DNA of 64,000 nt from Planctomycetia bacterium (GTDB lineage: Bacteria > Planctomycetota > Planctomycetia > Pirellulales > PNKZ01): positions 124,001-188,000 of the forward strand of contig JAIOPP010000008.1 of NCBI GenBank assembly GCA_021413845.1, read 5' to 3'. Each line of letters opens with the position of its first letter. Position 1 is the stretch's first letter. The notes under the pieces were generated by a model, which saw only the letters and a list, made by a program, of their open reading frames with translations, ran no database searches and was not told the DNA's origin. Of the stretch, positions 16,800 through 62,012 are shown piece by piece. The position numbers and the translations under genes are program-made.

Positions 16800-19445
16800 A
16801 TGAAGCACCGGTTGCTCTACGCTCTTGCCTTGGCATCGCTTGCGCAAAGTGCCGCCTCGTCGGCCGAGTTGCCGGGGCAGACGCGCAAGTTTATCGAAAC
16901 GCATTGCAGCGAATGCCACGACGCCGGCACGAAAAAAGGAGGGCTCGATCTCACGGATCTCAAGCCCGACCTGGCGGATCGGGCCGTGCTGCAGCGCTGG
17001 GTTTCGGTTCACGACCGCGTGCGCGACGGCGAGATGCCTCCGCCGTCGAAGGAAGGGGCACCGCCGGCGAAAGAGCGCGAGGCGATGCTCAAGGAACTCG
17101 CGAACCTGCTGCACGCGGCCGACAACCAGCGGCAGCGAACGGAAGGTCGCGTGCCGATTCGCCGACTCAATCGGACCGAATACGAAAGCACGATGCGCGA
17201 CTTGTTCTCGATGCCCGGCCTGCAGGTGAAAGACCTGCTGCCGGAAGACGGCCGGGCCGACGGCTTCGATAAGTCGAGCGTCGCGCTCGAAATCTCACCG
17301 GTGCAACTGCGGAAGTATCTCGAAGCCGCCGACTACGTGCTTGATGAAGCCATCGCACACGAAGACAAACCGACGGTCTTTCAGCAGCGCTTCCGCCGGA
17401 TCGGTGGACTGGCGCAGTTCTGCGAATGCTCGTTTCCGATCAAGAATCGCCGCGTCGACATGAGCGTGGTCGAGCGCATCCGTCCGCGCGACGGCACGGT
17501 CGGCATTCACATGCGCGATTTCGGCACGCATCTGCAAGCGATGGACTCGCTCGGCATCATCACCCACGCGCGCCCTTCCTACGACTGCTTGGTCGAGAAC
17601 TTCTCTCCCTTCCACTCCGGCTTCTATCGTCTGCGCACTTCGGTTTGGAGCTTCAACTACAACAAGGGAGAAATCGGGGAGACCGATCGCCTGCAATCGA
17701 TCGCGCTGACCGCGAACGGTCGCGTGTTGGCATACGTCGACGCCCCTTCGATGCAGCCGCGGACGCATGAGATCGTCGTGTGGTTGAACGAAGCGGACAC
17801 GGTGGAACTCAACCCGGCGAGCCTGTGGCCGAACTTCAATACCGCTTACAACCACGAAGGCCCCGGCGTGGCGGTCGATTTTTTCGACGTCGAGGGGCCG
17901 TTGAACGACATGTGGCCGCCGGCGAGCCATCGGCGGCTGTTCGGTAATCTGCCGATCGCCGAGATTCCGCATGAAAAAGATCGCGAGTATCCGCGCCAAC
18001 CGGTGAAGCCGATTCGTCGCCCCGGCTTTCGGCCGGATCATACCGACGGCAAGGAGTTTCAGAAGTGGCAACCGATCTGGACGGCGGCCTCGCCCCGACC
18101 GAACGACGACGCCCCGCGCTTGCTGCGCGACTTCTTGCCCCGTGCGTTTCGCCGACCGGTCACGGAAGAAGAGCTCGCCGTCTACGTGAAGATCGCGCGG
18201 GAGCGAATCGACGCCGGCGACTACTTCGAAAACGCGATGCGCGCCGCGTATCGGGTCGCCCTCTGCTCGCCCGACTTCATCTTCATTCAAGAGCCGCCGG
18301 GAGCGAATTCGCCGCAAGATCCGATGTCGCTCGATCAGTATGCGATCGCCGCGCGGCTCTCGTATTTGCTGTGGAATTCGCTGCCCGACGATGAGCTGAA
18401 AACGCTCGCCGATAAGCGCCAACTGCATCCGAAAACGATCACGCTGCAAATGGATCGGATGCTCGCCGATCCGCGCTCCAACCGTTTCGTCGACGATTTT
18501 CTCGACCAATGGCTCGACCTGCGGAAGATCGACTTCACGAGTCCCGAGGGACGCCTGTATCCGGAGTTCCGGCCCGACTTGCGCGATGCCATGCTCATGG
18601 AATCGCGGGCCTACTTCCGCGAGCTGCTCGACCACGATCTTGGGATCGGCCACGCGGTCGACTCGAATTTCCTGATGATCAACCAACGCCTGGCCGAACA
18701 CTACCGCATCGCCGGCGTCACGGGTTCCGCGATTCGCCGCGTTACCAAGCCTGCGGGGAGCCCCTACGGCGGCTTCGTCACGCAAGCCGCGGTTCTGAAG
18801 ATCACGGCCAACGGCACGACGACTTCTCCCGTACAGCGCGGCGCATGGGTCATGGATCGCATTCTCGGTCGGCCGGTGAAACCGCCGCCGCCCGACACGC
18901 CGGCCGTCGATCCCGACGTGCGCGGCACCACGACGATTCGCGAACAGCTCGACGCCCACCGCAACACGGCGGCTTGCGCCGGTTGCCACGCGAAGATGGA
19001 TCCGCCGGGTTTTGCGCTCGAAAACTTCGACGTCATCGGCGGTTGGCGCACGCTCTATCGCTTCACCGGCGAGACCGTCACCGATCCGACCTTGCGGCGC
19101 GGCAAAGACCCGTTGAAACATGAGTTCCTCGGCGTCTTGCCGAACCAATGGATTCATGTCATGAATAACGTCCGTTTCGGTCTCCCCGTCGATGCGACCG
19201 GCACGACGGTCGACGGCCGGAAGTTCAAAGACATCGTCGAGTTCAAACACATTCTGCTCACCGAGGAAGAAGCGATCGCGCGAAATCTCATCGAGCGACT
19301 CATCCTCTATGCGACCGGAGCGCGCGTCGGTTTCGCCGATCGCTCCGAAGTCGAATTGATTCTCAATCGGACGCGCGAAAGCCATTTCGGGCTGCGCAGC
19401 CTCGTGCATGAAGTCATCAGCACCCAAACATTCCGCCGGAAATAA
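16800..19445 (+). CDS. Planctomycete PSCyt/PSD multidomain protein (DUF1587-1595-1592-1588-1585)
   Basis: 881 aa; signal peptide then a haem-type CxxCH (CSECH, residues 36-40) in a PSCyt1-like N-terminus. The order after that is DUF1587/PSD3 (RRLNRTEYESTMRDLF, near 122), a carbohydrate-binding-like insert, DUF1595/PSD5 (FLPRAFRRPVTEEEL), DUF1592/PSD4 (AARLSYLLWNSLPDDEL), DUF1588/PSCyt3 with a second CxxCH (CAGCH near 725, then MDPPGFALENFD), and DUF1585/PSD2 at the C-terminus (LIERLILYATGARVGF). This architecture is a hallmark of planctomycetes and relatives. Two possible c-type haems suggest electron transfer; the reaction is unknown. The stop lies 3 nt before the DUF1552 start. Confidence 0.92.
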   Translation: MKHRLLYALALASLAQSAASSAELPGQTRKFIETHCSECHDAGTKKGGLDLTDLKPDLADRAVLQRWVSVHDRVRDGEMPPPSKEGAPPAKEREAMLKELANLLHAADNQRQRTEGRVPIRRLNRTEYESTMRDLFSMPGLQVKDLLPEDGRADGFDKSSVALEISPVQLRKYLEAADYVLDEAIAHEDKPTVFQQRFRRIGGLAQFCECSFPIKNRRVDMSVVERIRPRDGTVGIHMRDFGTHLQAMDSLGIITHARPSYDCLVENFSPFHSGFYRLRTSVWSFNYNKGEIGETDRLQSIALTANGRVLAYVDAPSMQPRTHEIVVWLNEADTVELNPASLWPNFNTAYNHEGPGVAVDFFDVEGPLNDMWPPASHRRLFGNLPIAEIPHEKDREYPRQPVKPIRRPGFRPDHTDGKEFQKWQPIWTAASPRPNDDAPRLLRDFLPRAFRRPVTEEELAVYVKIARERIDAGDYFENAMRAAYRVALCSPDFIFIQEPPGANSPQDPMSLDQYAIAARLSYLLWNSLPDDELKTLADKRQLHPKTITLQMDRMLADPRSNRFVDDFLDQWLDLRKIDFTSPEGRLYPEFRPDLRDAMLMESRAYFRELLDHDLGIGHAVDSNFLMINQRLAEHYRIAGVTGSAIRRVTKPAGSPYGGFVTQAAVLKITANGTTTSPVQRGAWVMDRILGRPVKPPPPDTPAVDPDVRGTTTIREQLDAHRNTAACAGCHAKMDPPGFALENFDVIGGWRTLYRFTGETVTDPTLRRGKDPLKHEFLGVLPNQWIHVMNNVRFGLPVDATGTTVDGRKFKDIVEFKHILLTEEEAIARNLIERLILYATGARVGFADRSEVELILNRTRESHFGLRSLVHEVISTQTFRRK

Positions 19446-19448
19446 GCT

Positions 19449-20729
19449 ATGAATTCCCATTCGTCGTCGCCGAATATCTCGAACGGGGTCTCGCGCCGCA
19501 CGTTTCTCTGCGGCGTCGGCGTTACGCTCGCGCTCCCCGCCTTGGCACGCGCGGCTGAAGCCCCCGCGCCGCGCAGGTTGGTTGCGATCCAAACGAATCA
19601 AGGGATCATGCCGCATCTGTTCTTTCCGGAGAAAGCCGGTCGCGATTACGCGCCGTCGCCGTATCTGGAAGTCCTCGCGCCGCTGCGCAAGCAGCTCACC
19701 GTCTTCTCCAACGTCTCGCATCCCGGCGTCGACGGCGGACACTCGAACGAAGTTTCCTTCCTCACCGGCGCGCCGCATCCGGCAGGGGCGGGCTTTCGCA
19801 ACTCCGTGTCGCTCGATCAATTCGCCGCCGAACAACTCGGCAGCCAAACGCGATTCTCCTCGCTCGTGCTCGCCGCCAGCAACTCCGGCGACCGGAGCAT
19901 GTCGTTCAATCGCTCGGGCGTACTCATCCCGCCGGAGACGAGCCCCGCTGCGCTGTATCGCAAATTGTTCGTGCAAGGGAGCGTGAAGGAAATCGACGCC
20001 CGCGTGAACGATCTGCGCTCCGGCCGGAGCTTGCTCGACACCGTCAACGAACGAGCCAAGCGCTTGCAAGCCGGCGCGGCGATCGCCGATCGGCACCGGC
20101 TCGATCAATACTTCACCTCGGTTCGCGAACTCGAGCAACAATTGCTGCTGGCCGAAGCTTGGGAACAGAAGCCGAAGCCGAAGGTCGAGATGAAGGAGCC
20201 GCCCGAGATGAAGGATCCCGCGCAACTCATCACCCGCCTGCGCACGACGTTGGATCTGGTCAAACTGGCTTTGGAAACCGACTCGACGCGCATCGTGAGC
20301 CTGTTCGTCCAGCCGCTCGGCACGCTTACCGAAATTCCCGAGGTCAAGCACGAAACCCATTCGCTCACGCACCACGGCAATCGTCCGGAGATGATCGACG
20401 AGCTGCGCAAGATCGAGACCGCGCAATTCACGGCCTTCCGCGACTTCCTCACCGGTTTGCAAGGGGTGAACGAAGCCGGCTCGACGCTGCTCGATCGCAG
20501 TTCCGTGCTTTACGGCACATGCATGGGGAACGCCAACGGCCACACCAACAAAGACTGGCCGATGTTGCTCGCCGGCGGCGGCTTCAAGCACGGCGCGCAT
20601 CTCGCTTTCGCGAAAGACAAGAACGAGCCGCTCGGCCGACTGTTCGTGTCGCTGCTCCAGCGCATGGGAGTCGAAACCGATCGCTTCGCCGGCGCGGGCG
20701 GCACCATGCCGGGCCTCGACATGGCGTAG
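19449..20729 (+). CDS. Tat-exported DUF1552 protein
   Basis: 426 aa with a twin-arginine signal (VSRRTFLCGVGVTLALPAL, residues 14-32). DUF1552 features: RLVAIQTNQGIMPHLFFP, NVSHPGVDGGHSNEVSFLTG, HETHSLTHHGNRPEM and a C-terminal GTCMGNANGHTNKDWPMLLAGGG. The fold is thought to be related to the alkaline-phosphatase superfamily; no function is established. It is separated from the PSCyt/PSD gene by 3 nt. The same gene pair recurs throughout planctomycetes, so the two products very likely act together. Confidence 0.9.
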   Translation: MNSHSSSPNISNGVSRRTFLCGVGVTLALPALARAAEAPAPRRLVAIQTNQGIMPHLFFPEKAGRDYAPSPYLEVLAPLRKQLTVFSNVSHPGVDGGHSNEVSFLTGAPHPAGAGFRNSVSLDQFAAEQLGSQTRFSSLVLAASNSGDRSMSFNRSGVLIPPETSPAALYRKLFVQGSVKEIDARVNDLRSGRSLLDTVNERAKRLQAGAAIADRHRLDQYFTSVRELEQQLLLAEAWEQKPKPKVEMKEPPEMKDPAQLITRLRTTLDLVKLALETDSTRIVSLFVQPLGTLTEIPEVKHETHSLTHHGNRPEMIDELRKIETAQFTAFRDFLTGLQGVNEAGSTLLDRSSVLYGTCMGNANGHTNKDWPMLLAGGGFKHGAHLAFAKDKNEPLGRLFVSLLQRMGVETDRFAGAGGTMPGLDMA

Positions 20730-39441: not shown

Positions 39442-40056
39442 TTAGTTGACCAGCAGGCTTTCTTGCGTGTCGAGCCAGGCACGCCGGGAGGCGTATTTCA
39501 GCATGAATTCGCTCTTGGGATCGAACATGCTCGTGACGTTCCCTTGCGCGTCGACGGCGTTGCGGCCGAGGCCGCCGTTGTCCGATTGCTTTTGCATGAA
39601 CCCGAGCCAGAGGCGGTCGGGCTGCAGGCCGAAGAACAATTTTTGCTCGGCGTCGAAACCGCCGTCGAAAAAGTTGCGAGTCAGGGGGGCCGTGTGGAGC
39701 GTGAAGCAGACGAAGCAAACGGCCGTCCAACCGATCCAGAACGCCACGATGACGCCGCCGAAGTTTTCCATCAGCGGATGAAAGCGGACGCGAAAGCGCG
39801 ACAGTTTCCCGGTGAGAGTGCGCAGCAGCAAGAAGGTGCCGGCGAAGAGCAGGCCGAGCGAGATGATATCCCACACATGCACGGCCGAGGTCAGGAGCGA
39901 GGTGAGGAACTGCGCGAGAGGCTCGAAGTAGCACGTCGCGATGATCGCCGAGAGGATCGTGTTGAAGAGCGTGATCGTGTTGCTCCAGAGCCCATCGCGG
40001 GCCAAGCCGCCGACGATGAACAACACGATCACGATAAAGATGACGTTGAGTACCAT
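39442..40056 (-). CDS. CvpA-like integral membrane protein
   Basis: 204 aa. Four hydrophobic helices lie in the first 125 residues (VLNVIFIVIVLFIVGGLARDG, an ILSAIIATCYF segment, ISLGLLFAGTFLLL, VIVAFWIGWTAVCFVCF), with the CvpA-type arrangement, followed by a 75-residue soluble tail. CvpA proteins are linked to colicin V production, envelope homeostasis and curvature in other bacteria, with no defined activity. It is the third gene of the PilT/PilB-like unit (85 nt after the PilB-like stop). Confidence 0.7.
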   Translation of the reverse strand: MVLNVIFIVIVLFIVGGLARDGLWSNTITLFNTILSAIIATCYFEPLAQFLTSLLTSAVHVWDIISLGLLFAGTFLLLRTLTGKLSRFRVRFHPLMENFGGVIVAFWIGWTAVCFVCFTLHTAPLTRNFFDGGFDAEQKLFFGLQPDRLWLGFMQKQSDNGGLGRNAVDAQGNVTSMFDPKSEFMLKYASRRAWLDTQESLLVN

Positions 40057-40141
40057 AAGATCGGCGGCGATGAAGGTTGTGCTGAGGTTCGAGCTGGTTT
40101 ATCTGGCGAACGGAGAAACGGTAAGGCGAGCGGCGTCGGTT

Positions 40142-42133
40142 TTACGATCCCGGCCGTTTCGGCGCCGGAGGCTTCGCGGCCGGCTTCTGTGCGGCGGCGG
40201 CTGCCGGCTTCGCAGCGGTCGCGGGCTTCGCCGTGGCCGCCGCAGGGGCAGCAGCGGGGGGGCCGGCAGGCGCGGCGGCCGGTGCCGCGGCCGGCGTGGC
40301 CGTTCCGTCCTTCAACACTCGCGACAACTCGGCTACCGAGGTGAGCCCCTTCACGACGAGGAGCAGCCCTTCGTCTTCAAAGGTCTTCATCCCTCCCTTA
40401 CGCGCGGCGTTGCGAACCGATTCGACCTTCGGATCTTTGAGCAGCGTCTGGCGCACGAGGTCGTCGACGACGAGCAGCTCGATCATCGCGATCTGGCCGT
40501 TGTAGGCGAGGCCCGCACAACCCTTGCAAACTTCTTGGCGGGGCTGCGTCGGCGGTCGATAGAAGGCGGCGACCTTATCGGCCGGAATGCCGAGCTTCTG
40601 CAGAATTTGCGGCTGCGGAGGGTACGCCTCTTTGCATTGATCGCAAAGTTTACGGACGAGACGCTGAGCGATCGCGCCCGAAACCGCGGCGGCGTATTTC
40701 TTCAGCGGCACCTTGGTCGCGATCGCCGGCAGCAACAAACCTTCGGCCGCTTCGCGTGCCCGGGCCGTCGTCAGGATGAGCCGATCGTCGGACACGGCGT
40801 CTTCGCAGATAAACGTCGCCGTCTCGACGTTCACCAACTCGGGCACGAACAACACATCGGGGAATTGCCGAATGACGCCGGGGATCTTCGTCATCGGCGA
40901 TTCTTGTTCGAGGCTGTCGTACGGCGTGATCTGCACGTTCTCGACCTCGACGTCGGCCGAGTTCTTATCTTCGATCGCCATGATGCTGCGCGTGTAGCGA
41001 TCGATGGATGCGAGGCAAGCGGTGACGAGGCTCGTGAGCCCGCCTCCCGGCGGCGCGGCGATGACGAACAAGCCCGACTTCCGGCCGAGCAAGCCCAGAA
41101 GATCGTCGGCTACTTTTTGGCGCAGCGAGTATTCGGCGATGCGCCGCTTGCGAACCGCAGGGTCTTCGAACTGCACCAGCGCTCGCTCGCCGGTCGGCGT
41201 TCCCTGGCTCGTGAGCTTGCAGGCGATCTTGCGTCGCGTCGCATCTTCGACGGCGGTGAACGTCCCTGTTTGCCGCGTCCGACGGTCTTCGGGCTTGAGC
41301 CCGCACAGCACTTTAACGGCGGCGAGAACGGGATCGCCGACTTGCCGCGGCAGGGCATCCCCTTCGAGCCAAACGCCGTCGACGAGAAACTTCACGGCGA
41401 CCGCTTCGGCGGTGAAGTCGAGCATGATCCCGCTCGCGCGATGGCCGATCGATTGGCGGATCAGATCGCGCATGAGGGCTTGGCCCGGCGACTGGCGAAG
41501 CGCGATCTCGCGCTTTTGCGTTTCTTCCGAGGAAGGGGCTCCGCGCGCGAGGAGCGTGATCGGCGGGTTGAGCCCCTTCTGCTTCCCCGTGGCGCTGATC
41601 TTGATGCCGAAGCGTCGGAGCGACGTCGCGGCGATGAGCCGAAGATGCGCCGGCGTGAAGACTTGGTCTTCCGCCTGTTGCAGCTTGTTTCGCTGCATGA
41701 CATAGACGACCGTCGGCGCAACGAGCGCCGCGAGCATCAGCACGAAGCTCAGCGCGTACCAAGGAATGACGAACTGCAACAGAAACATCACGGCGAACGG
41801 CCCGAACGCCAGGGAGTTCCAGAGCCGGTAATTCTGCTCGACCTTCTGCGCGTCGCGATTGAGCCAGTCGCACGTCAGGATCCAGCCGAAGAACAGCAAG
41901 ATCGTGCAGACGAGCTTCGGGATGCCGAAGTAAGAGCCGGGGCCGCGCGCGAAGTTGGCCGACGTAAATTGGTCGGGCGCCTTATCGTTGCTCCACATCG
42001 GCCAAGTGCCGACGGGCGGAGGCGCGGCGACTGCCGGAGCGGCCTTCGAGCTCTGAGCGTGCGCGGGGGTCGGCGCGGTCGCCGTGAGGCACGCGAGAGA
42101 GATGCCGAGAAGTAAAATCAGGATACGCGACAT
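40142..42133 (-). CDS. Membrane-anchored GspE/PilB-like protein with degenerate ATPase motifs
   Basis: 663 aa from ATG 42133, which overlaps the stop of the PilT-like gene by one base (TAATG). It has a signal-like first 27 residues and about three further hydrophobic segments (residues 65-150). The GspE/PilB core follows, with zinc-type CxxC pairs (LCDQC and VCKGC). Walker A is PPGGGLTSL instead of GxxGxGKT(S/T), the Walker B/GEIRD region reads FPDVLFVPELVNVETA, and the His box reads DRLILTTARARE. The Lys, acidic and His catalytic residues are thus all lost. It ends in a 70-residue Ala/Pro/Lys tail. Likely a pseudo-ATPase partner or scaffold. Confidence 0.82.
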   Translation of the reverse strand: MSRILILLLGISLACLTATAPTPAHAQSSKAAPAVAAPPPVGTWPMWSNDKAPDQFTSANFARGPGSYFGIPKLVCTILLFFGWILTCDWLNRDAQKVEQNYRLWNSLAFGPFAVMFLLQFVIPWYALSFVLMLAALVAPTVVYVMQRNKLQQAEDQVFTPAHLRLIAATSLRRFGIKISATGKQKGLNPPITLLARGAPSSEETQKREIALRQSPGQALMRDLIRQSIGHRASGIMLDFTAEAVAVKFLVDGVWLEGDALPRQVGDPVLAAVKVLCGLKPEDRRTRQTGTFTAVEDATRRKIACKLTSQGTPTGERALVQFEDPAVRKRRIAEYSLRQKVADDLLGLLGRKSGLFVIAAPPGGGLTSLVTACLASIDRYTRSIMAIEDKNSADVEVENVQITPYDSLEQESPMTKIPGVIRQFPDVLFVPELVNVETATFICEDAVSDDRLILTTARAREAAEGLLLPAIATKVPLKKYAAAVSGAIAQRLVRKLCDQCKEAYPPQPQILQKLGIPADKVAAFYRPPTQPRQEVCKGCAGLAYNGQIAMIELLVVDDLVRQTLLKDPKVESVRNAARKGGMKTFEDEGLLLVVKGLTSVAELSRVLKDGTATPAAAPAAAPAGPPAAAPAAATAKPATAAKPAAAAAQKPAAKPPAPKRPGS

Positions 42134-43278
42134 TACAAAATTCCAGGTTGGGCGACGTTGATGCCCTTCAGGGCCATCTTCAATGCATCGACGTTCGGAG
42201 CGACTTCGAACGCCGTCGCGCGGTCGATCAGATCGGTGTCGACGAGGTTCTTCAAGCTCATCGTGAAGTCTTGCATCCCTTCCTTTTCGCACATGCGAAT
42301 GGCGTCGGGGAGCTTTTCGTCTTTCTCTTCGAGAATCAATTTGCGCACGATCGAGTTGAACGTCATGATCTCGACGGTCGGCACTCGGCCGACCCCTTCC
42401 TTGATCGACGGCAACAACTTCTGCGCCACGATCGCCTTCATGTTCATCGCGATCGCGCTGCGGAGCGACGAGTGCATCGTTTGCGGGAACAAGTCGAGGA
42501 TCCGGCCGATCGTCGAAGGGGCGCTCGAAGCGTGGATCGTGCCGAACACCAAGTGCCCCGTCTCGGCGGCGTGGATCGCCGTGAGGAACGTCTCTTCGTC
42601 GCGCATTTCACCGACGAGCATGATGTCGGGGTCTTCGCGCACCGCGTGCTTCATGCCGATCTTAAAGTCGATCACGTCCATGCCGATCTCACGCTGATTG
42701 ATCATGCTTTTATCTTCTTCGAAGATGAATTCGATCGGGTCTTCGAGTGTGAGAATGTGTTTGCGGTAGTTACGGTTCACCCAATTGAGCATGCTCGCGA
42801 TCGTCGTACTTTTGCCCGAACCGGTTACGCCGGCCAAGAGCACCATCCCTTGGTGATACTTGCAGAGATCGACCATCCCCGGCGGGAGGTGCAAGCCTTC
42901 GAAATTGGGAATCGACCGATTCACGCGCCGCGCCACGAGCCCGACGTGGCCGAGCTGCGTGAGCATGTTGACGCGGAATCGCCACATCTCGCCGTCGACG
43001 TCGACGGTGTACGCGAAGTCGGCGCCGCCGGTGTCGTTGAAGATCTTCCGGTTCCGGTCGTTGAGCAGCGGGAACAACAGCCGCACCATCTCTTCATCGT
43101 CGAGCGGCGGGCGCGTGAGCGGACGCAGGTCGCCGTTGACGCGCACGATCGGCGCACGGCCGACCTTCATGTGAAGATCGCTCCCTTTCAGCTTCACGAG
43201 GGCCCGAAACAGCTTATCGACTTCGAGCTCGACCCGTTTCTGGATATATCGTTCTGCATCTGCGTCGATCAGGGCCAT
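42133..43278 (-). CDS. pilT: PilT/PilU-like retraction-type ATPase
   Basis: 381 aa, soluble. All core motifs of the type IV pilus/T2SS ATPase family are intact: Walker A GVTGSGKSTT near residue 151, Asp box LTLEDPIEF, Walker B with PDIMLVGEMRDEET near residue 220 and His box GHLVFGTIHAS near 240. The PilT-specific C-terminal AIRAGESSL-type motif is not recognisable (AIRMCEKEGMQDF). No pilin or PilC-like gene is adjacent. Its stop codon overlaps the start of the degenerate PilB-like gene, implying coupled synthesis. Confidence 0.9.
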   Translation of the reverse strand: MALIDADAERYIQKRVELEVDKLFRALVKLKGSDLHMKVGRAPIVRVNGDLRPLTRPPLDDEEMVRLLFPLLNDRNRKIFNDTGGADFAYTVDVDGEMWRFRVNMLTQLGHVGLVARRVNRSIPNFEGLHLPPGMVDLCKYHQGMVLLAGVTGSGKSTTIASMLNWVNRNYRKHILTLEDPIEFIFEEDKSMINQREIGMDVIDFKIGMKHAVREDPDIMLVGEMRDEETFLTAIHAAETGHLVFGTIHASSAPSTIGRILDLFPQTMHSSLRSAIAMNMKAIVAQKLLPSIKEGVGRVPTVEIMTFNSIVRKLILEEKDEKLPDAIRMCEKEGMQDFTMSLKNLVDTDLIDRATAFEVAPNVDALKMALKGINVAQPGIL

Positions 43279-43379: not shown

Positions 43380-44147
43380 CTAAATTCGAACCGCGACGCC
43401 GCGCGCGGCCATCGCCCGCTTCGCCGCCCCGATCGTGTATTCGCCGAAATGGAACATCCCGGCCGCAAGCACGGCGTCGGCATGTCCGAACAGCACGGCA
43501 TCGGCCAAGTGGTCAGGCGTTCCCGCCCCGCCGCTGGCGACGACCGGAATCGAGACGGCATCGCTGACGGCTCGCGTCATCTCTAGATCGTACCCTTGTT
43601 TGGTGCCGTCGGCATCCATGCAGGTCAGCACGATCTCGCCGGCCCCGAGTTTTTCGACCTGGCGAGCCCAGTCGACGGCGTCGAGCCCGGTCGGCACCCG
43701 TCCGCCGTTGATGTACACTTCCCAAGTGTCGCGCCCGTCGCGCCGGACCCGTTTCGGGTCGATATTCACGACCGTCGCGCAGCTGCCGAACTTCCGACTG
43801 ACTTCGGAGATCAGCTCCGGAGTGCGCACAGCGGCCGAATTGATGCTCACCTTCTCGGCCCCGGCTTGGATCAGGCAGGTGGCGTCGTCGAGCGTCCGGA
43901 TGCCGCCGCCGACGGTAAACGGCATGAAGATCGTCTCGGAGACCCGGCGGACGACGTCGAGCATGATGGCCCGGCCTTCGTGGCTGGCCGTGATGTCGAG
44001 GAATACGAGCTCATCGGCCCCGTCCGCTTCGTAGCGTGCGGCGACCGCGACGGGGTCGCCGGCATCCCGGAGCTCGAGAAACTTCGTTCCCTTGACGACG
44101 CGCCCACGTTCCACATCGAGACAAGGAATGACGCGCTTGGCGAGCAT
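43380..44147 (-). CDS. hisF: Imidazole glycerol phosphate synthase cyclase subunit
   Basis: 255 aa from ATG 44147, the normal HisF length; a longer frame to 44264 adds an unlikely N-terminus. TIM-barrel motifs: [18 protein letters not shown] (catalytic Asp 11 type), [51 protein letters not shown] (catalytic Asp) and [12 protein letters not shown]. Cyclises the product of PRFAR amidation in histidine synthesis with HisH. No other his gene is in the window. Divergent from the small secreted protein gene. Confidence 0.95.
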
Positions 44148-44354
44148 GGTTTGCGTAGCGATCGATAAGAGCCTAGAGCGCGCGAATCCGGCGAGACTAC
44201 GTCGACTATCCGCCCCGGAATCGGCGGGATTTTTTACTCTAAGCTCCTCGGGCGCAACGGTCAACGGCCCAAGCGTTTACCTATCGGAAGTGAGAGCGAA
44301 GTTGGGTCGATCGCAGGGTGCCGGCGGATGGCAGAGTTAAAAAGGCGTTAATTT

Positions 44355-54715: not shown

Positions 54716-54772
54716 GACTTACTTCTCCGCCTTCACTCGGCGGCTTACTTCTCGACGGCTTACTTCTTCACC
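54716..54772 (-). repeat. Three copies of the TolQ-like gene's stop-codon region
   Basis: On the minus strand AAGAAGTAAGCCG at the gene end is repeated as AGAAGTAAGCCG and again as AGAAGTAAGTCGG, separated by short spacers. Only the first copy is in frame and terminates the gene. Confidence 0.65.
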
Positions 54773-55668
54773 GTCTGGAAGCGGCTCATGAGCCCTTCGG
54801 AAATCGCACCGACGTCGTACAAGAACCGCGCGAGGCGATTCTTATAGATGCCGAACATGCAGATGGCCGGAATAGCGAGCCAGAGCCCGACGATCGTCGT
54901 GATGAGAGCCGTCGAAATACCGCCGGCGAGGCTCGCCGGATCGGGCGTCGTACCGGATTGTTCGATGACGCGGAAAGACGCGATCATCCCGTCGACCGTG
55001 CCGAGCAGCCCGACCATCGGCGCGATCGAGCCGATGAGCGCGATGTAGCTGAGGCGGTGTTCGAGCTTCATGGCTTCGTCGCTACCGGCTTCGTTCATCG
55101 CTTCTTCGGCGGCATCGTAACCGGATTGCAGCTTCGACATGCCGGCGGCGAGCAACGCGCCGAGGAACGACTCGTCGGCCTTCGCCATTTCGTAGGCCCC
55201 TTGGTAGTTCTTCTCGTTGAGCGCGGCTTCGAAGTTCTGCGACAACGCTTCCGGCATGATCGCGCTGCGGCGCAAGGCCAAGCCGTTGAGAATGACGAGC
55301 GCCACGAACGTAAACGACAGAGCCAAGAAGATCACGGTGTACAGGATCCCGAGCGAACGGTAGTAGTACGCCAAGAGGGACTCGTTCTTGAGTTCTTCGA
55401 TCTTCTTCTCCTTCGCGAGTTGCTCGGGCGTCTTACCGGCGGCCGACGAAGTCGACGGCGCAGCCGGAGCGGCCGGGGCGGCGGCTTCCGCGTCGGGAGC
55501 CGGAGCCGCTGCGGGAGCGGCGGCCGGAGCGGCTGCGGCATCGGGATCCGCGGCCGGAGCTTGAGCCGAGGCCGATTGCACGCTCAACCACGCGCCGCAC
55601 ACGGCGACCAACATCGCCGAAACGACTAACCGACATAACGACCAACGAGAAACGACGCGAACGAGCAT
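54760..55668 (-). CDS. TolQ/ExbB/MotA-family proton channel protein
   Basis: 302 aa; GGAGG 8 nt before the ATG. Signal-type first helix (SRWSLCRLVVSAMLVAVCGA), an Ala/Pro linker of about 40 residues, a Lys/Glu-rich helix, then the family core: TM helix near residues 108-132 and two further helices with IGSIAPMVGLLGTVDGMIASF near residue 212 and ALITTIVGLWLAIPAICMFG near 255. Forms the proton-driven stator with the ExbD proteins encoded just downstream. The long exported N-terminal extension is unlike E. coli TolQ or ExbB but common in planctomycetes. Confidence 0.92.
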   Translation of the reverse strand: MLVRVVSRWSLCRLVVSAMLVAVCGAWLSVQSASAQAPAADPDAAAAPAAAPAAAPAPDAEAAAPAAPAAPSTSSAAGKTPEQLAKEKKIEELKNESLLAYYYRSLGILYTVIFLALSFTFVALVILNGLALRRSAIMPEALSQNFEAALNEKNYQGAYEMAKADESFLGALLAAGMSKLQSGYDAAEEAMNEAGSDEAMKLEHRLSYIALIGSIAPMVGLLGTVDGMIASFRVIEQSGTTPDPASLAGGISTALITTIVGLWLAIPAICMFGIYKNRLARFLYDVGAISEGLMSRFQTVKK

Positions 55669-55874
55669 GACGACGGCCTCCGCAATAAAGCGAATGTAGG
55701 GGATCGGAGCGGGGGGAAAATGATTCTGCGAACGGTTCGCTGCGAGCCCCGGCGGGGAGCGAAGACGAAGCGTCTTAAATGCCGAATGAAGGCGAAAAGT
55801 TCAGTCTAATTGCAGTTCTTCGTACTGTAAAGGAAGCGAAGCGAGGCAAACCGGGGTTTCCTGCCGCAGCGGGC

Positions 55875-55901
55875 GCTCGGGCCGATACAACCGGCCCGAG
55901 C
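55875..55901. repeat. Perfect 10-bp hairpin after the 358-aa TPR gene
   Basis: GCTCGGGCCG and its complement flank a 7-nt loop, 8 nt beyond the stop of the 55909-56985 gene. No T-tract follows, so it may be a transcript 3'-end stabiliser or an attenuated terminator before the TolQ-like gene. Confidence 0.6.
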
Positions 55902-55908
55902 CCAGGCC

Positions 55909-56985
55909 TTAGGCAGGCTTTTTCTTCGTCAACCAAGGGGTGCCGGGATAGAGCCGATTGAGCCGGGTGAGGCATTCTTGGCCCCGTTCGTTCTTCCCGA
56001 TTTCGGTCCAGAGGTTCGAGAGGTTCCAGAGCGCTTCGGCATGGGCCGACGGCACGCTCGCGTAGAGGACATCGACGTGCAGGAAGGCCAGCAGGGCCGC
56101 CTTCTTGCCGTCCGGCTTGGCGTTGTAGCAGTTGCCGAGCGTCACGTAGGCCAAGGCCTGCAATTCCGATTCTTCCGGGTTCAGGTTCGCGATGACCGTT
56201 CCTTCGAGTTCCTTGATCGCTTCGTCGTACTGGCCGACCGCCGACTGGCATTGCGTGCGACCGAGCACCGCGGCGAAGCGTTGGCTTTCGGCCGAGCTCC
56301 CCTTTTGCGTCATCGGGTTGAACGGAATCTTCAACACTCCCTCGAACGCCGCTTGCGCTTGAGGGAAATTCTTCTGCGTCACCAGGGCTCGTCCGCGGGC
56401 CACGCCGGCGCGCATCTTCATGTCGTCGAACGGCGAGGCTTCCAACTCGGCGTAGCACTTCAAAGCGTCGTCGACTTTATTCAACGCGACGAGCAAGTCC
56501 CCCATCACTTCCTGACCTTGCAGATAGTGGTAGCTGTCCTTCTGGCCGTTGACGAACGTATACATCGCCGTGCCGGCGGCATCGACCTTACCGGCTCCGC
56601 GCAGCGCCATGCGGGCCTGAGCGAGCGCCGCGTAGAACTCGTAGTCTTGCTTGATTTCCTTGCGCGTGATCGTTTCCCGCTTGACCCTGCCGAGTTGCGT
56701 GAGGGCGCTTTGATCGCCGCCGTTCTTCAGGGCGCTACGCGCGAGGTTGATTTCCGTCGGCTCCCCCTCGAACTGAATCGAATCGATTTCGTTCGTGGGG
56801 ACCTTCGTCAGAACTCCTTGTACGTCGATCGTCACTTCCGTCGCGTTCACGGTCTTCACCGCGCCGGCCACGCGCGGCACGTTGCCCATCTTGCGAATCG
56901 AATCGAGAGCCGAGGCATCGTCGACGAGGCCGAGACAGAACAGAGAGAAGCAGACCACCGAGGCCGCACAGCGAACGAACTTCAT
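55909..56985 (-). CDS. Secreted TPR-type protein, 358 aa
   Basis: The start at 56985 is chosen for the signal peptide (MKFVRCAASVVCFSLFCLGL) and AGGAG 7 nt upstream. A short beta-rich N-terminal part (VAGAVKTVNATEVTIDVQGV, then VPTNEIDSIQFEGEPTE) precedes helical repeats of TPR type (NKVDDALKCYAELEASPFDD, GQYDEAIKELEGTVIANLNP). Similar N-terminal segments probably interact with partner proteins. It is 90 nt after the 1082-aa TPR gene and 240 nt before the TolQ-like gene. Likely an accessory periplasmic scaffold. Confidence 0.82.
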   Translation of the reverse strand: MKFVRCAASVVCFSLFCLGLVDDASALDSIRKMGNVPRVAGAVKTVNATEVTIDVQGVLTKVPTNEIDSIQFEGEPTEINLARSALKNGGDQSALTQLGRVKRETITRKEIKQDYEFYAALAQARMALRGAGKVDAAGTAMYTFVNGQKDSYHYLQGQEVMGDLLVALNKVDDALKCYAELEASPFDDMKMRAGVARGRALVTQKNFPQAQAAFEGVLKIPFNPMTQKGSSAESQRFAAVLGRTQCQSAVGQYDEAIKELEGTVIANLNPEESELQALAYVTLGNCYNAKPDGKKAALLAFLHVDVLYASVPSAHAEALWNLSNLWTEIGKNERGQECLTRLNRLYPGTPWLTKKKPA

Positions 56986-57075
56986 AACACGACTCCTAGC
57001 AAAACGTATGTTGATATTTTCGGTTGTGATCGAGAGTTTTATTTCCGGCGAACTCAAGGCGCTTCGCGCACCGCG

Positions 57076-60000
57076 CTATTGCGTGAGTGCCTTCGTCGCC
57101 TTGTCGTTCAGGTCCTTATACTTCGGCTTCCACTCGACGCCCCCCATGTCGGGATCGTAGTCTTTCGTGTTTTCGATCGAATACGTCACGCTGTTGAGCA
57201 GCTTCGAGCGTTCGGCCGGCGTGGCGGCTACGAGGGCGTTTTGGTAGTAGCACAACGCCATGTTGTAGCGGCCGACATGGAAGAGCCGGCGGTAAGCCGT
57301 GTGTTGCTGCTTCGCTTCCTCGAAAGCCGCTAGGTCTTTTTGGTACTTCGCTTTGACGTCGGCGGCGGCTGCATCCGCGGGGGCCTTCGGTGCCACCGGC
57401 GGTTGGAATTGCGGGATGCGCCGCATGGTGTCGGCGATGCGCTTCCAACCCCAGATGATGTTCTCTTTCGTTTTCGGATCCGGCCGCGAGCCTTCGATGG
57501 CCCGGGCGAACATCAGCGGCTCTTTGTTGTTGACGGCGCGAGCCACGAGCGTCTCGGCCGCTTCGACCTGGGCTTCCATCAGATTGCGGCGACCGAGCAG
57601 CACGTCGGCCAAGGCGTTGACCGATTCGACGTAGTTCGACGCGCGACGCATGGCGCGAGCCTTGCGCAGCTTGACGATGAGTTGCGCGTCGGAGTTCGCT
57701 TCGGTCAGAGGTGCGAGCTGGTCGTCGATCTCGCTGGAGCGTTTGAGCAAGTCGACGGCCGTCGTACGATCTTCGGCCGAGACTTCTTTTTGATCCAGCA
57801 GATCGCTGCCGAGCTTATACAAGTTCTCGGAGGCCCAATTCGCGTTCTGGAAGTACATCGTCTTCTTGTCGGTCGGCAATTGGTTGTATTGCTCGACCGC
57901 CGGGAGATACGCTTTTTTCACCTCGCCGAGGAAGAAGGCGAAACCCTTCGACGACTTCTTGATCCCCTCGATGTTCTTCGTCGAGCGATTTTGCTCGATC
58001 TGCTTTTCGAGCCGCAGCGCGAGGTTCAGATAGGTGCCCGCGAGTTGTTCCTTCGTGTCGCCGCCGGCTCCGGCTTTCGCCATCAACGCGTCGAGCTCCG
58101 GAGTCAGCTTTTGCGCTTCGTCCACTTTGTCGTTGAGGATGTAGGCCTGCAGCGCGAGCTTATACGCTTCGATCGGAATCGGGGCGACCGTCGCGGCGGG
58201 GTTCTTCGCCGCGTTGCGCACCAAGGTGAGCAAGCCCAGCTTCGGGTCTTCGAGAATCTCAAGCGCCTTGGCGTTTTGCCCCAGTGCGATGCGCGTCTCG
58301 CACAAGAAACGCAGCGCATCGGCATGCTGCACGGTGAGCTTCTCGACGGCGTCGAGCTTCGGGCGTTCCCGTTCGATCGCCTTTTCCAAGATCGCGTTGG
58401 TCTGCACGGCTAGGTTTTGCATATCGGCGGCCGGCATCTTCGTCGGCGCACCGTCGTCGATCCCCAGTTGCTCGCTGTAGAGCCCCCAGAGGGTACCGGC
58501 GGCTCGCATTTCCGCATCGGAACGGATCGCCGCGGTTTCTTGAATGCTCCCTAGAGCCAGCAAGATGTCGGGCAGGTTCTTTTCGTTGATCGCGATGGCG
58601 AGCAGGATATTCCAGGCGTCGTCGGCCTCTTTCTCTCCCTTCCAGCGCTTCGTGATCTCCGAAGCGATCGAGTACATCTTCTTCCGATCGAAGGCCGCAT
58701 CGAATGGCTTCTTGTTTTCCAGCAACAACTGTTGGTTGTTTTGATATTCGTTGACGTAGCCGGCCAACGCGATTTGCGCCGCCGAACGGGCACCGCCGCT
58801 ATTCGGGTAGAACTTCAACAAGAACTCGCCCATCACGGCCGGCTCGTACGTCTTCCCCTGCGTATACATGAGATAGCAGATGTAGTAGCGGACGATGTTG
58901 CGATCGTCGAAGCTCGTATTTTCGTCGGCCAGCGTAACGGCCTTCGCGAACATCGTCAGCGCGCCGTCGCGAGCCGTGTTAGCTTCCTTCTGCTTCGCCG
59001 CTTGGATCGCCGGATCGGTCGCCTTCTGCGCTTCAGCCACGGCGGCGGAGAACTTCGTCATCTCCTCCGTGCCGCGGTTTTGAGCTTCGAGAAACGTCCG
59101 GGGTTCGCGGTTCGGGTCGACGTTCGAGCCGATCTCTTTCAACAACGCGCGGGCCAAGTCTTGATACTCGCCCGTCGCACTCGCCACGACTTCCGCATAG
59201 TCGGCCGCATGGTCGAGGGCCCGTTGCTTCTTCGTCGCTTCTTCTCCCTTGGCACCGGCCGGAAACGTGCCGGACCACAACTTATTGGCGACCGCGCCGT
59301 AGTAGCGCACGGCGAGCCATTCGGGACGCGAGAGCTCTTCGTTGCTCGAGCCCCGGATGAATTCTTCGGCCTGGATGGCCGCGAGCTCGTACAGCTTTTC
59401 CGTTTCGGCGGTCCAGCATTGCAGCGACAAGTACAAGGCGCTGGCCTTATACGGACGGAGCGACTTGAGATCGTCGGGCTGGCCCAAGAGATCGTTGTAC
59501 AGGCCGAGAGCGCGCTTCGTATCCTTCAACTCTTGGTAGCACTGGCCTTCTTGCAAGCGCGCTGCGAGGCCGGCGATGAGCGTGCGATAGTCTTTGTAGA
59601 TCGAGCCGTATTTCTCGGCCGCCGTGAGGAGGGCTTTCTTCCATTCGGGCGATTGATCGACGAATGTGCGCGACTTCTCGTACAGCCCCTTGGCGTGGAA
59701 CATGTGGGCCTGGATCAAGTCTCCTTTGGCCCGTTCGCGCAGAGCGACGCGCGGATCGTCCGGCGTCATGAATTTCGGAAACGTCTGTAAGAGCTTGGCG
59801 AACTTCTCTTCGGCTTGGAGGAAGACCTTTTCCGATTCGTCGAAGAACTTGCGGGCTTCTTCCATCAGCGCCGGTTTTTGCTTCTCGAACTCCGGTCGCA
59901 CCGCTTGTTCGACTTTGGCCCGACCTCGCTCGACGAGCACGGCCCCCATTTGCGTCTCGGCGCCCGGAGCTTGCGGGTGCGACGGGTTCGCGGCGACGAA

Positions 60001-60324
60001 CTCTTGGAACTTCGCCTTCGCGCCGTCGAGCAGCTTCTCGCGCACGACGTTGTCGCGCTCGCTGCGCGAAGCTTCGAGGTTCGTGCGCGCCGCTTCGAAG
60101 GGGATCATCTGTCGCTGCGTCTCGGTGAGCAGCGGGCTCTTGACCATCGCATCGAGATAGTCGATCGCGACGTCGTAGTAGCCCTTCTGCCGCAGCCCTT
60201 GGAGGAAGTTTTCGTATTCCTCGACGGCATAGAGCGTCGGCGCTTGCGTTAGGCCGAGCGCGAGAGCCACCGGAGCGCCGCGGAACATTCTCAAACCGAG
60301 CATTCTAAAACCGATTCGTTTCAT
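57076..60324 (-). CDS. Large secreted helical/TPR-like protein, 1082 aa
   Basis: The start at 60324 is chosen for the signal peptide (MKRIGFRMLGLRMFRGAPVA) and GGAAGGAAG upstream. The rest is helical repeat throughout: early GLRQKGYYDVAIDYLDAMVK, a middle region shared with the 382-aa protein (IYKDYRTLIAGLAARLQEGQ, RALGLYNDLL), and a distinct C-terminal half ending near ALVAATPAERSKLLNSVTYS. No cysteines of note or catalytic motifs. Probably the largest periplasmic component of the ExbB/ExbD locus. Its relation to the shorter paralogue suggests duplication followed by extension or truncation. Confidence 0.85.
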   Translation of the reverse strand: MKRIGFRMLGLRMFRGAPVALALGLTQAPTLYAVEEYENFLQGLRQKGYYDVAIDYLDAMVKSPLLTETQRQMIPFEAARTNLEASRSERDNVVREKLLDGAKAKFQEFVAANPSHPQAPGAETQMGAVLVERGRAKVEQAVRPEFEKQKPALMEEARKFFDESEKVFLQAEEKFAKLLQTFPKFMTPDDPRVALRERAKGDLIQAHMFHAKGLYEKSRTFVDQSPEWKKALLTAAEKYGSIYKDYRTLIAGLAARLQEGQCYQELKDTKRALGLYNDLLGQPDDLKSLRPYKASALYLSLQCWTAETEKLYELAAIQAEEFIRGSSNEELSRPEWLAVRYYGAVANKLWSGTFPAGAKGEEATKKQRALDHAADYAEVVASATGEYQDLARALLKEIGSNVDPNREPRTFLEAQNRGTEEMTKFSAAVAEAQKATDPAIQAAKQKEANTARDGALTMFAKAVTLADENTSFDDRNIVRYYICYLMYTQGKTYEPAVMGEFLLKFYPNSGGARSAAQIALAGYVNEYQNNQQLLLENKKPFDAAFDRKKMYSIASEITKRWKGEKEADDAWNILLAIAINEKNLPDILLALGSIQETAAIRSDAEMRAAGTLWGLYSEQLGIDDGAPTKMPAADMQNLAVQTNAILEKAIERERPKLDAVEKLTVQHADALRFLCETRIALGQNAKALEILEDPKLGLLTLVRNAAKNPAATVAPIPIEAYKLALQAYILNDKVDEAQKLTPELDALMAKAGAGGDTKEQLAGTYLNLALRLEKQIEQNRSTKNIEGIKKSSKGFAFFLGEVKKAYLPAVEQYNQLPTDKKTMYFQNANWASENLYKLGSDLLDQKEVSAEDRTTAVDLLKRSSEIDDQLAPLTEANSDAQLIVKLRKARAMRRASNYVESVNALADVLLGRRNLMEAQVEAAETLVARAVNNKEPLMFARAIEGSRPDPKTKENIIWGWKRIADTMRRIPQFQPPVAPKAPADAAAADVKAKYQKDLAAFEEAKQQHTAYRRLFHVGRYNMALCYYQNALVAATPAERSKLLNSVTYSIENTKDYDPDMGGVEWKPKYKDLNDKATKALTQ

Positions 60325-60863
60325 CCGTATCTTCCTTCCGTAGCTTCCATTCCTCGTTGCCACGCAGTGGGCTCCGTTCGTGCTTCGACCGAAGCGACGA
60401 ACAACACCGAGCGTGGCGAACGACGAGAGAACTATGTGAATGCTGGAACAGTTAATTCGGAACTAAAAGCAAGTCGTGAGCGTCGAACCTCTTCGATGAC
60501 TCCTGCGTCGGATCGATGCGCTCGAAGGGCCGATGCCGTCCGAACGAAACGAGCTGCGAGGGTGTTACCGAACAGGGGTAGAATCGTGCAAGAAAAGGGA
60601 GCGGGCGGAAGCGGAATTTCAGACGAGTGAACACCGAGAAAGAACTTCGACGAGATGGGTCGCGTGCGACGCCGGAACAGCGGTCCCGAGCGGCGCGACG
60701 AGAATCACACATCAGCTTATAAGCCGTTTTTCACGTAATCAAGCAGGAGCCTTCGTAATTCATGATTTCGTCGCTAGGGGCCGCCGCACGCGGGCGACTT
60801 CGAGCTCGCCACGGCCGGCGCCGATGCGTCGGCCGCTTCAGGTTGCGGCAGTGTTCATTGCTG
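60325..60863. other. 539-nt non-coding gap between the two TPR paralogues
   Basis: No convincing gene on either strand; the small open frames have no homologous features. A weak minus-strand promoter-like pair, TTGATT (60742-60737) and TATAAG (60721-60716), is separated by 15 nt and could drive the 1082-aa gene with a leader near 390 nt. Confidence 0.5.
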
Positions 60864-62012
60864 CTAGTTGCTTTTGCCGCCGGCCCCGTCGAGGTCGATC
60901 AGAAGTTGGTCGGCCGCGGCTTGGTAAGGGCCCGGCTTTTTCGTCAGCGGCTCGGCATGCGTCCGAGCTTTGACGAGCCACGCCCCCCGATCCGCCGGCG
61001 AAGGCTTCTTCTTTTTGTCCATCGCAGCCAACAAGTAGCCTCGGGCGGTGAAGTACCGCACGGCTTGCCACTCGGGCCACGACTCTTCTTCGTGCGGGAG
61101 GTGGGTTAAATATTCCTCCCCCTGAGAAAAAGCCAATTCGTACAGCTTTTCCTGTTCGGTCGTCCAGCATTCGAGCGACAAATACATCGCCGCGACCCGC
61201 ATCCGATGCAGAGGCTTGATCTCGTCGGGCTGCGTTAACAGATCGTTATACAGCCCGAGAGCGCGGCGCGGCTCGCCGAGGTTCTTGTAGCACATCCCTT
61301 GCTTCAGGCGAGCCATGAGCCCGGCGATGAGCGTGCGATAGTCTTTGTAGATCTGCTCGTACCGATCGGCGGCGGCTTGATAGTTCTCGCGCGCTTCCGA
61401 CGATTCCAGGGGGTACGTCCCGGCGAGTTCTTCGAGCACGCCGGCTTGATACATCAGCGCTTGCATCAGGTCTCCGCGCAACCGATCGCGGCGGCGCGTC
61501 TCGGCTTCCGACATCCCCTCCTTCGGAAACTTCGAGAACGACCGGAGCCGATTTTGAAACTGATCGATCACGGTCGTGAAGAGTTTCTCGGCGGCGCGAA
61601 ACCGCTGCCGGGCAAGATCCAACAGCGCATCCCGATCGGCCGGAGCTTCCACTTGCCGAGCGTCCGAGGCATCGGCTTTGCCGGCGGTCGTTAGGACGAC
61701 CCCCAACTGCATCTCGGCATACGGCGCATTGATGTGGGTCGGGTTCTCTTTCAGGAATTCTTCGAGCAGCGTTTGCGCTTTGAGCAACAGTTTCTCACGC
61801 TGCGCTGTTTCCAGCGCGGTCATCGAGGAATGCACCAGCGCTCGAGCTTCCGTCACGACTTGCGGCACGGCATCGGGAACGTTTCTCGATTCCGCGGTGT
61901 CGCCCGCTTCGCCGGCGGCGCGCAGCGCTACTAAGTCGAACACGCCGGTACCGCCGATTACGACGACGAGCATCGCAAACTTCCGAACGAAGCTTCCCAC
62001 CAACTTGTGCAT
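60864..62012 (-). CDS. Secreted TPR-like protein, 382 aa (paralogue of the 1082-aa protein)
   Basis: N-terminal hydrophobic segment (FAMLVVVIGGTGVFDLVALR) is a signal or anchor. The body matches the N-terminal half of the 1082-aa protein: QIYKDYRTLIAGLMARLKQG, RRALGLYNDLLTQPDEI, AAMYLSLECWTTEQEKLYEL and WQAVRYFTARGYLL. It lacks the long C-terminal half. The start codon directly follows the stop of the VWA gene (TAG then ATG), which implies coupled translation. Probably interacts with the VWA protein. Confidence 0.84.
   Translation of the reverse strand: MHKLVGSFVRKFAMLVVVIGGTGVFDLVALRAAGEAGDTAESRNVPDAVPQVVTEARALVHSSMTALETAQREKLLLKAQTLLEEFLKENPTHINAPYAEMQLGVVLTTAGKADASDARQVEAPADRDALLDLARQRFRAAEKLFTTVIDQFQNRLRSFSKFPKEGMSEAETRRRDRLRGDLMQALMYQAGVLEELAGTYPLESSEARENYQAAADRYEQIYKDYRTLIAGLMARLKQGMCYKNLGEPRRALGLYNDLLTQPDEIKPLHRMRVAAMYLSLECWTTEQEKLYELAFSQGEEYLTHLPHEEESWPEWQAVRYFTARGYLLAAMDKKKKPSPADRGAWLVKARTHAEPLTKKPGPYQAAADQLLIDLDGAGGKSN

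Follow-up and report, generated by a model that had tools for sequence, protein, structure and literature searches.

The locus and its proteins

The window, by which we mean the whole stretch of 64,000 nucleotides analysed, carries a PilT gene followed on the reverse strand by genes for a membrane-anchored relative of the PilB/GspE ATPases and for a CvpA-like protein (Table 1). The hisF-like gene 5' of pilT is a conserved neighbour that is probably functionally unrelated to it.

Table 1. Genes and features of the pilT locus, with positions in the window.
Feature	Position	Strand	Basis
pilT (P0002), intact PilT-family ATPase	42133..43278	-	TIGR01420 over cut-off and intact motifs
Pseudo-GspE/PilB (P0001, 663 aa), membrane-anchored	40142..42133	-	PF00437; order-wide orthologues without the Walker A Lys
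CvpA-like membrane protein (P0003)	39442..40056	-	PF02674 over cut-off
TAATG, pilT stop and P0001 start sharing one base	42131..42135	-	Sequence
Signal-peptide-like and three TM segments of P0001 (residues 1-155)	41669..42133	-	Hydropathy, conserved residues
Degenerate Walker A of P0001 (residues 358-370), IAAPPGGGLTSLV	41024..41062	-	No Lys in 64/64 order loci (L, F, Y or M instead)
Degenerate Walker B/GEIRD region of P0001 (residues 425-437), PDVLFVPELVNVE	40823..40861	-	Gly and Arg missing; acidic residue retained in most loci
Degenerate His box of P0001 (residues 451-464), RLILTTARAREAAE	40742..40783	-	H458 absent throughout the order loci; H451 present in just 3/64
First CxxC of P0001 (C497, C500)	40634..40645	-	Present in 64/64 order loci
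Second CxxC of P0001 (C536, C539)	40517..40528	-	Present in 63/64 order loci
hisF-like gene 5' of pilT	43380..44264	-	ORF as listed, true start probably further in; name from reading of sequence

By profile and motifs P0002 is assigned to the PilT-family ATPases, with a predicted role in pilus retraction. It scored 384 bits against the TIGR01420 PilT/PilU model (cut-off 319 bits), its closest solved structures are PilT proteins, and its Walker A (GVTGSGKST), GEMRD and HLVFGTIHA motifs are intact, as in every complete adjacent PilT copy examined. The same genome encodes a PilT on contig C36 that is about 40% identical to the one in the window. P0003 exceeded the Colicin_V (PF02674) cut-off with 33.1 against 29.3 bits and may be called CvpA-like by family match, its function being putative. 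A scan of the locus found no promoter-like site, and terminator-like sites were near chance. Co-transcription of pilT and P0001 is a prediction.

P0001 is a homologue of the T2SSE domain family (PF00437, E=2e-33, over the cut-off), and its closest solved structures are PilF and GspE, aligned over residues 202-618 with E down to 1.5e-39. It fell far below the equivalog cut-offs for both GspE (TIGR02533, E=6e-47, 160 against 630 bits) and PilB (TIGR02538, 148 against 676 bits). The Walker A Lys, GEIRD and His box expected of a PilB or GspE are missing: APPGGGLTS stands in place of GPTGSGKTT, PELVN in place of GEIRD and TTARARE in place of TLHTND, while both CxxC pairs, CDQC and CKGC, are present. 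Hydropathy indicates a signal-peptide-like segment at residues 1-17 and TM segments at approximately 69-87, 107-125 and 128-146, positions that are matched in most homologues. This TM domain is common to intact and degenerate forms, and the N-terminal region (residues 1-155) has conserved W, DW, RD, RN, T and H residues; searches of the TM domain against Pfam and PDB gave nothing significant. An AlphaFold2 model of P0001, built from a five-row alignment only, had a mean pLDDT of 45 and a pTM of 0.28 and was too poor to use.

The original prediction, made from the letters of this DNA, is largely borne out at the level of the locus: the intact PilT motifs, the one-base overlap, the signal peptide and three helices of the partner, the degenerate Walker A beside two retained CxxC pairs and the CvpA-like third gene were all recovered. 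Its account of the GEIRD region and His box held for the Gly, the Arg and both His residues, which are lost, and failed for the acidic residue of GEIRD, which is retained as E432. That no pilin, PilC or secretin gene lies nearby agrees with what a reading of the window ORF lists could show, none being evident there. Elsewhere in the window, two regions drew attention by eye only: a predicted membrane protein resembling ExbB/MotA beside several large secreted repeat-like proteins (54760-62012), and two adjoining large genes that look like a planctomycete cytochrome-domain/DUF1552 pair (16800-20729).

Conservation of a degenerate ATPase across the order

Orthologues of P0001 were found in all 58 of the genomes searched from the taxonomic order of the source genome. 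In two of the genomes (G131 and G163) the search ranked an intact paralogue first, yet a degenerate copy adjoins PilT in each (L239 and L238, respectively). In an alignment of 64 order loci from 63 genomes, the Walker A Lys was absent throughout, with Leu (55), Phe (4), Tyr (3) or Met (2) in its place, whereas it was present in all 32 intact relatives used for comparison. The Gly and Arg of GEIRD and His 458 of the His box were likewise lost across the order, the Walker B Glu position was D or E in 53/64 loci, the TPTG pattern was altered and the Asp box was longer. All four cysteines of the CxxC pairs were kept in 63/64 loci, and this tetracysteine motif forms a putative zinc site. Other positions have become newly conserved in the degenerate loci (Arg379, Arg382, Pro362 and Glu464), with Arg379 invariant and Glu388 found in 56/64. 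The degenerate motifs that the original prediction asked to be followed in homologues of the same gene order are thus conserved in the order.

Nine close pairs gave dN/dS values of 0.05-0.33 over residues 1-608 and 0.03-0.30 for the ATPase core, figures that are approximate since they come from a simple Nei-Gojobori count with many dS values near or above 1. The C-terminal zinc region had the lowest or equal-lowest value in eight of the nine pairs, the exception being L094/L104, in which the ATPase core fell below it. With catalytic residues lost across the clade under purifying selection, P0001 is, as judged from sequence, a conserved pseudo-ATPase and a lineage trait of the order, and its ATP hydrolysis has most likely been lost.

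Some genomes vary from this pattern. Those of family f74 (L133, L134, L138 and L151) have an intact TM-containing GspE paralogue alongside the degenerate copy, and the degenerate homologues at L126, L127, L130, L132, L136, L139 and L203 are shortened to about 440-480 aa and lack the N-terminus with its three TM segments; some of them are unlinked to PilT.

Gene order, relatives and the origin of the loss

Among 63 further order loci, PilT lies directly upstream in 54, CvpA directly downstream in 52, and both in 47. The one-base overlap of the PilT stop with the P0001 start is available in 39 of the 48 order loci measured, when the nearest candidate start and not an annotated one is taken; in other loci the junction has scattered gaps and the overlap was not seen. 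A hisF-like homologue was found in 47 loci, and a gene for a DUF4190-like membrane protein follows cvpA in 35 of the 63 (e.g. L107:10515-11399), none being found after cvpA in the window. Nine order loci are without an adjacent PilT, and seven of those genomes encode an orthologous PilT elsewhere. No orthologous PilT was found in the two others, G145 and G161; the contig of G161 ends at the gene, and G145 represents a pseudo-ATPase without an orthologous PilT. In family f76 the P0001 homologue is unlinked to PilT.

A match at E <= 1e-45 was found in 46 of 59 genomes of the class. Families f2, f87, f88 and f89 for the most part harbour the TM-anchored protein with its motifs intact, and such intact relatives elsewhere in the class often share the gene order of the P0001 locus. 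The expectation that no homologue in this position would carry an intact Walker A therefore held within the order (64/64 without the Lys) and failed outside it. Other states also occur: the Lys is present with GEIRD and His motifs lost at L194, L195, L196, L207 and L208, and all three are lost at L212, L149 and L150. At L193 (G196) the catalytic motifs are intact and the zinc cysteines are lost or degraded; at L194 (G182) the zinc cysteines are lost as well as the GEIRD/His motifs.

The P0001 group forms a clade separate from canonical PilB/GspE (SH-aLRT 99). In another tree the degenerate members group together, with one His, one GEIRD and three Lys changes; these rows have long branches, come from different families and classes, and may attract one another. 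Since relatives elsewhere in the class have intact motifs, the most parsimonious view is that the ancestor was active and that catalysis was lost later, once or more than once, as a derived trait of the lineage. A scan of the genome contigs returned canonical relatives only.

Five genomes, four of f88 and one of f89, keep hisF-pilT with no GspE-like gene downstream (L233-L237 in G194, G179, G184, G189 and G186); this PilT is thus able to persist where its partner is missing. Because of these sister-family PilT genes, and of G145 with the partner and no orthologous PilT, the partnership between PilT and the pseudo-ATPase is not strictly obligate. Nor is the membrane anchor universal, since family f76 and the loci L130, L139 and L203 have no TM segments.

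The source genome (7.08 Mb, 99.6% complete) contains 13 PF00437 (T2SSE) and 14 PF00482 matches, including PilB-PilT-PilB-PilC-like genes on contig C36, and further T2SSE and T2SSF genes were present in all 30 genomes tested from the order and class. With pilus or secretion ATPase and platform genes elsewhere in the genomes, we find no support for the initial suggestion that the pair works outside a normal pilus.

A proposed partner of PilT and comparison with known systems

The loss of the ATP site in a protein that is nevertheless kept after a working PilT gene suggests a non-catalytic anchor or regulator of PilT. We propose, with a probability of about one half, that P0001 is a pseudo-ATPase with a three-helix inner-membrane anchor and serves the PilT of the preceding gene as a dock, stator or regulator. 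Its subunits would lie at the membrane on the cytoplasmic side, where their retained N2 and zinc parts might assemble them into a ring that a soluble PilT hexamer could meet; the ring might then position PilT, couple it to a partner in the membrane or the pilus platform, or set the timing of its work, with CvpA as a possible component of the assembly in the membrane. The orientation of P0001, its ring, its contacts with PilT and with CvpA and any role in pilus retraction are all parts of this proposal. We count against it the PilT genes without partner in the five f88/f89 genomes, G145, the loci without TM segments and the acidic residue kept in 53/64. A bolder version, which we consider rather doubtful, is a two-ring membrane motor in which a dedicated PilT hexamer and the CvpA-like protein would have a dead, membrane-anchored GspE ring, kept order-wide, as their stator or gate. 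Such a motor would stand apart from the standard machine for pilus retraction and might belong to planctomycete surface structures. The pilus-like fibres and crateriform structures of planctomycetes are poorly understood (PMC5394234).

The persistence of each protein without the other, in the f88/f89 loci and in G145, and the unlinked homologue of f76 also fit a non-catalytic P0001 with a role of its own, for example in signalling or as a scaffold for the pilus or envelope, which would be in one operon with PilT and yet make no contact with it. A precedent is M. xanthus PilB, described as a signalling protein (PMC5544727); set against the gene order and one-base overlap conserved over the order, this reading is possible but less likely than the proposed one. 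We think it unlikely that P0001 is a nucleotide sensor, binding or slowly hydrolysing nucleotide through an altered site: the acidic Walker B Glu position, Glu388 and the invariant Arg379 would suit such a function, but the Lys is lost in 64/64, TPTG is changed, the His box is gone and the Asp box is lengthened.

The earlier idea of one mixed hexamer, with working sites from PilT and inert positions from P0001, draws on their being co-encoded and of one superfamily. It appears very unlikely, as the two differ in size, N-terminus and sub-family; PilT and PilU, which are far more alike, nevertheless each assemble into a homohexamer of their own (PMC6821130). Pseudogene decay with erratic substitutions was rejected and is scarcely conceivable: P0001 does outpace PilT in evolution, but it is present in 58/58 genomes, every region has a dN/dS far under 1, the lost residues are replaced consistently and some positions are invariant, all of which speaks against a decaying remnant.

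Type IV filament motors have been described as rings of active ATPases. P0001 shares the domain plan of the PilB/GspE assembly ATPases (PF00437; TIGR02538, TIGR02533) over residues 216-608, with an N2-type domain and two CxxC pairs; it differs from them in lacking the Walker A Lys, GEIRD and His box, and its three-TM N-terminus replaces their usual soluble N-terminal region. There is a close likeness to the TM-anchored GspE-like proteins of other families in the class (L140-L144, L184-L193, L197-L202, L204-L206), which have the same anchor, CvpA downstream in most and PilT upstream in many; unlike P0001 they keep the Lys, GEIRD and His motifs intact and are presumably active. PilU, unlike P0001, is not known to have a TM anchor. 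Like P0001 it belongs to the PilB/PilT superfamily and is encoded next to PilT or works with it. PilT-PilU offers a precedent for paired rings, but in PilU the Walker A Lys is intact and the protein has ATPase activity (PMC6821130). ArlH (FlaH), the partner of ArlI in the archaellum, binds ATP without hydrolysing it (PMC8978795), and as a protein of the RecA fold that does not hydrolyse ATP but pairs with a ring ATPase that does, it offers an analogy to what is proposed for P0001; it differs in being KaiC-like, in binding ATP and in standing outside the GspE lineage (PMC8978795). Both parallels are of working and not of descent. In the open-access literature we found no description of a planctomycete PilT/GspE pair or of a pilus pseudo-ATPase. 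P0001 would be a new candidate partner of PilT in planctomycetes, a membrane-anchored PilB/GspE relative kept order-wide beside an intact PilT after catalytic loss, while related families keep intact versions. This series from intact to degenerate forms provides a natural means to ask what role a protein of the P0001 type has beyond ATP hydrolysis.
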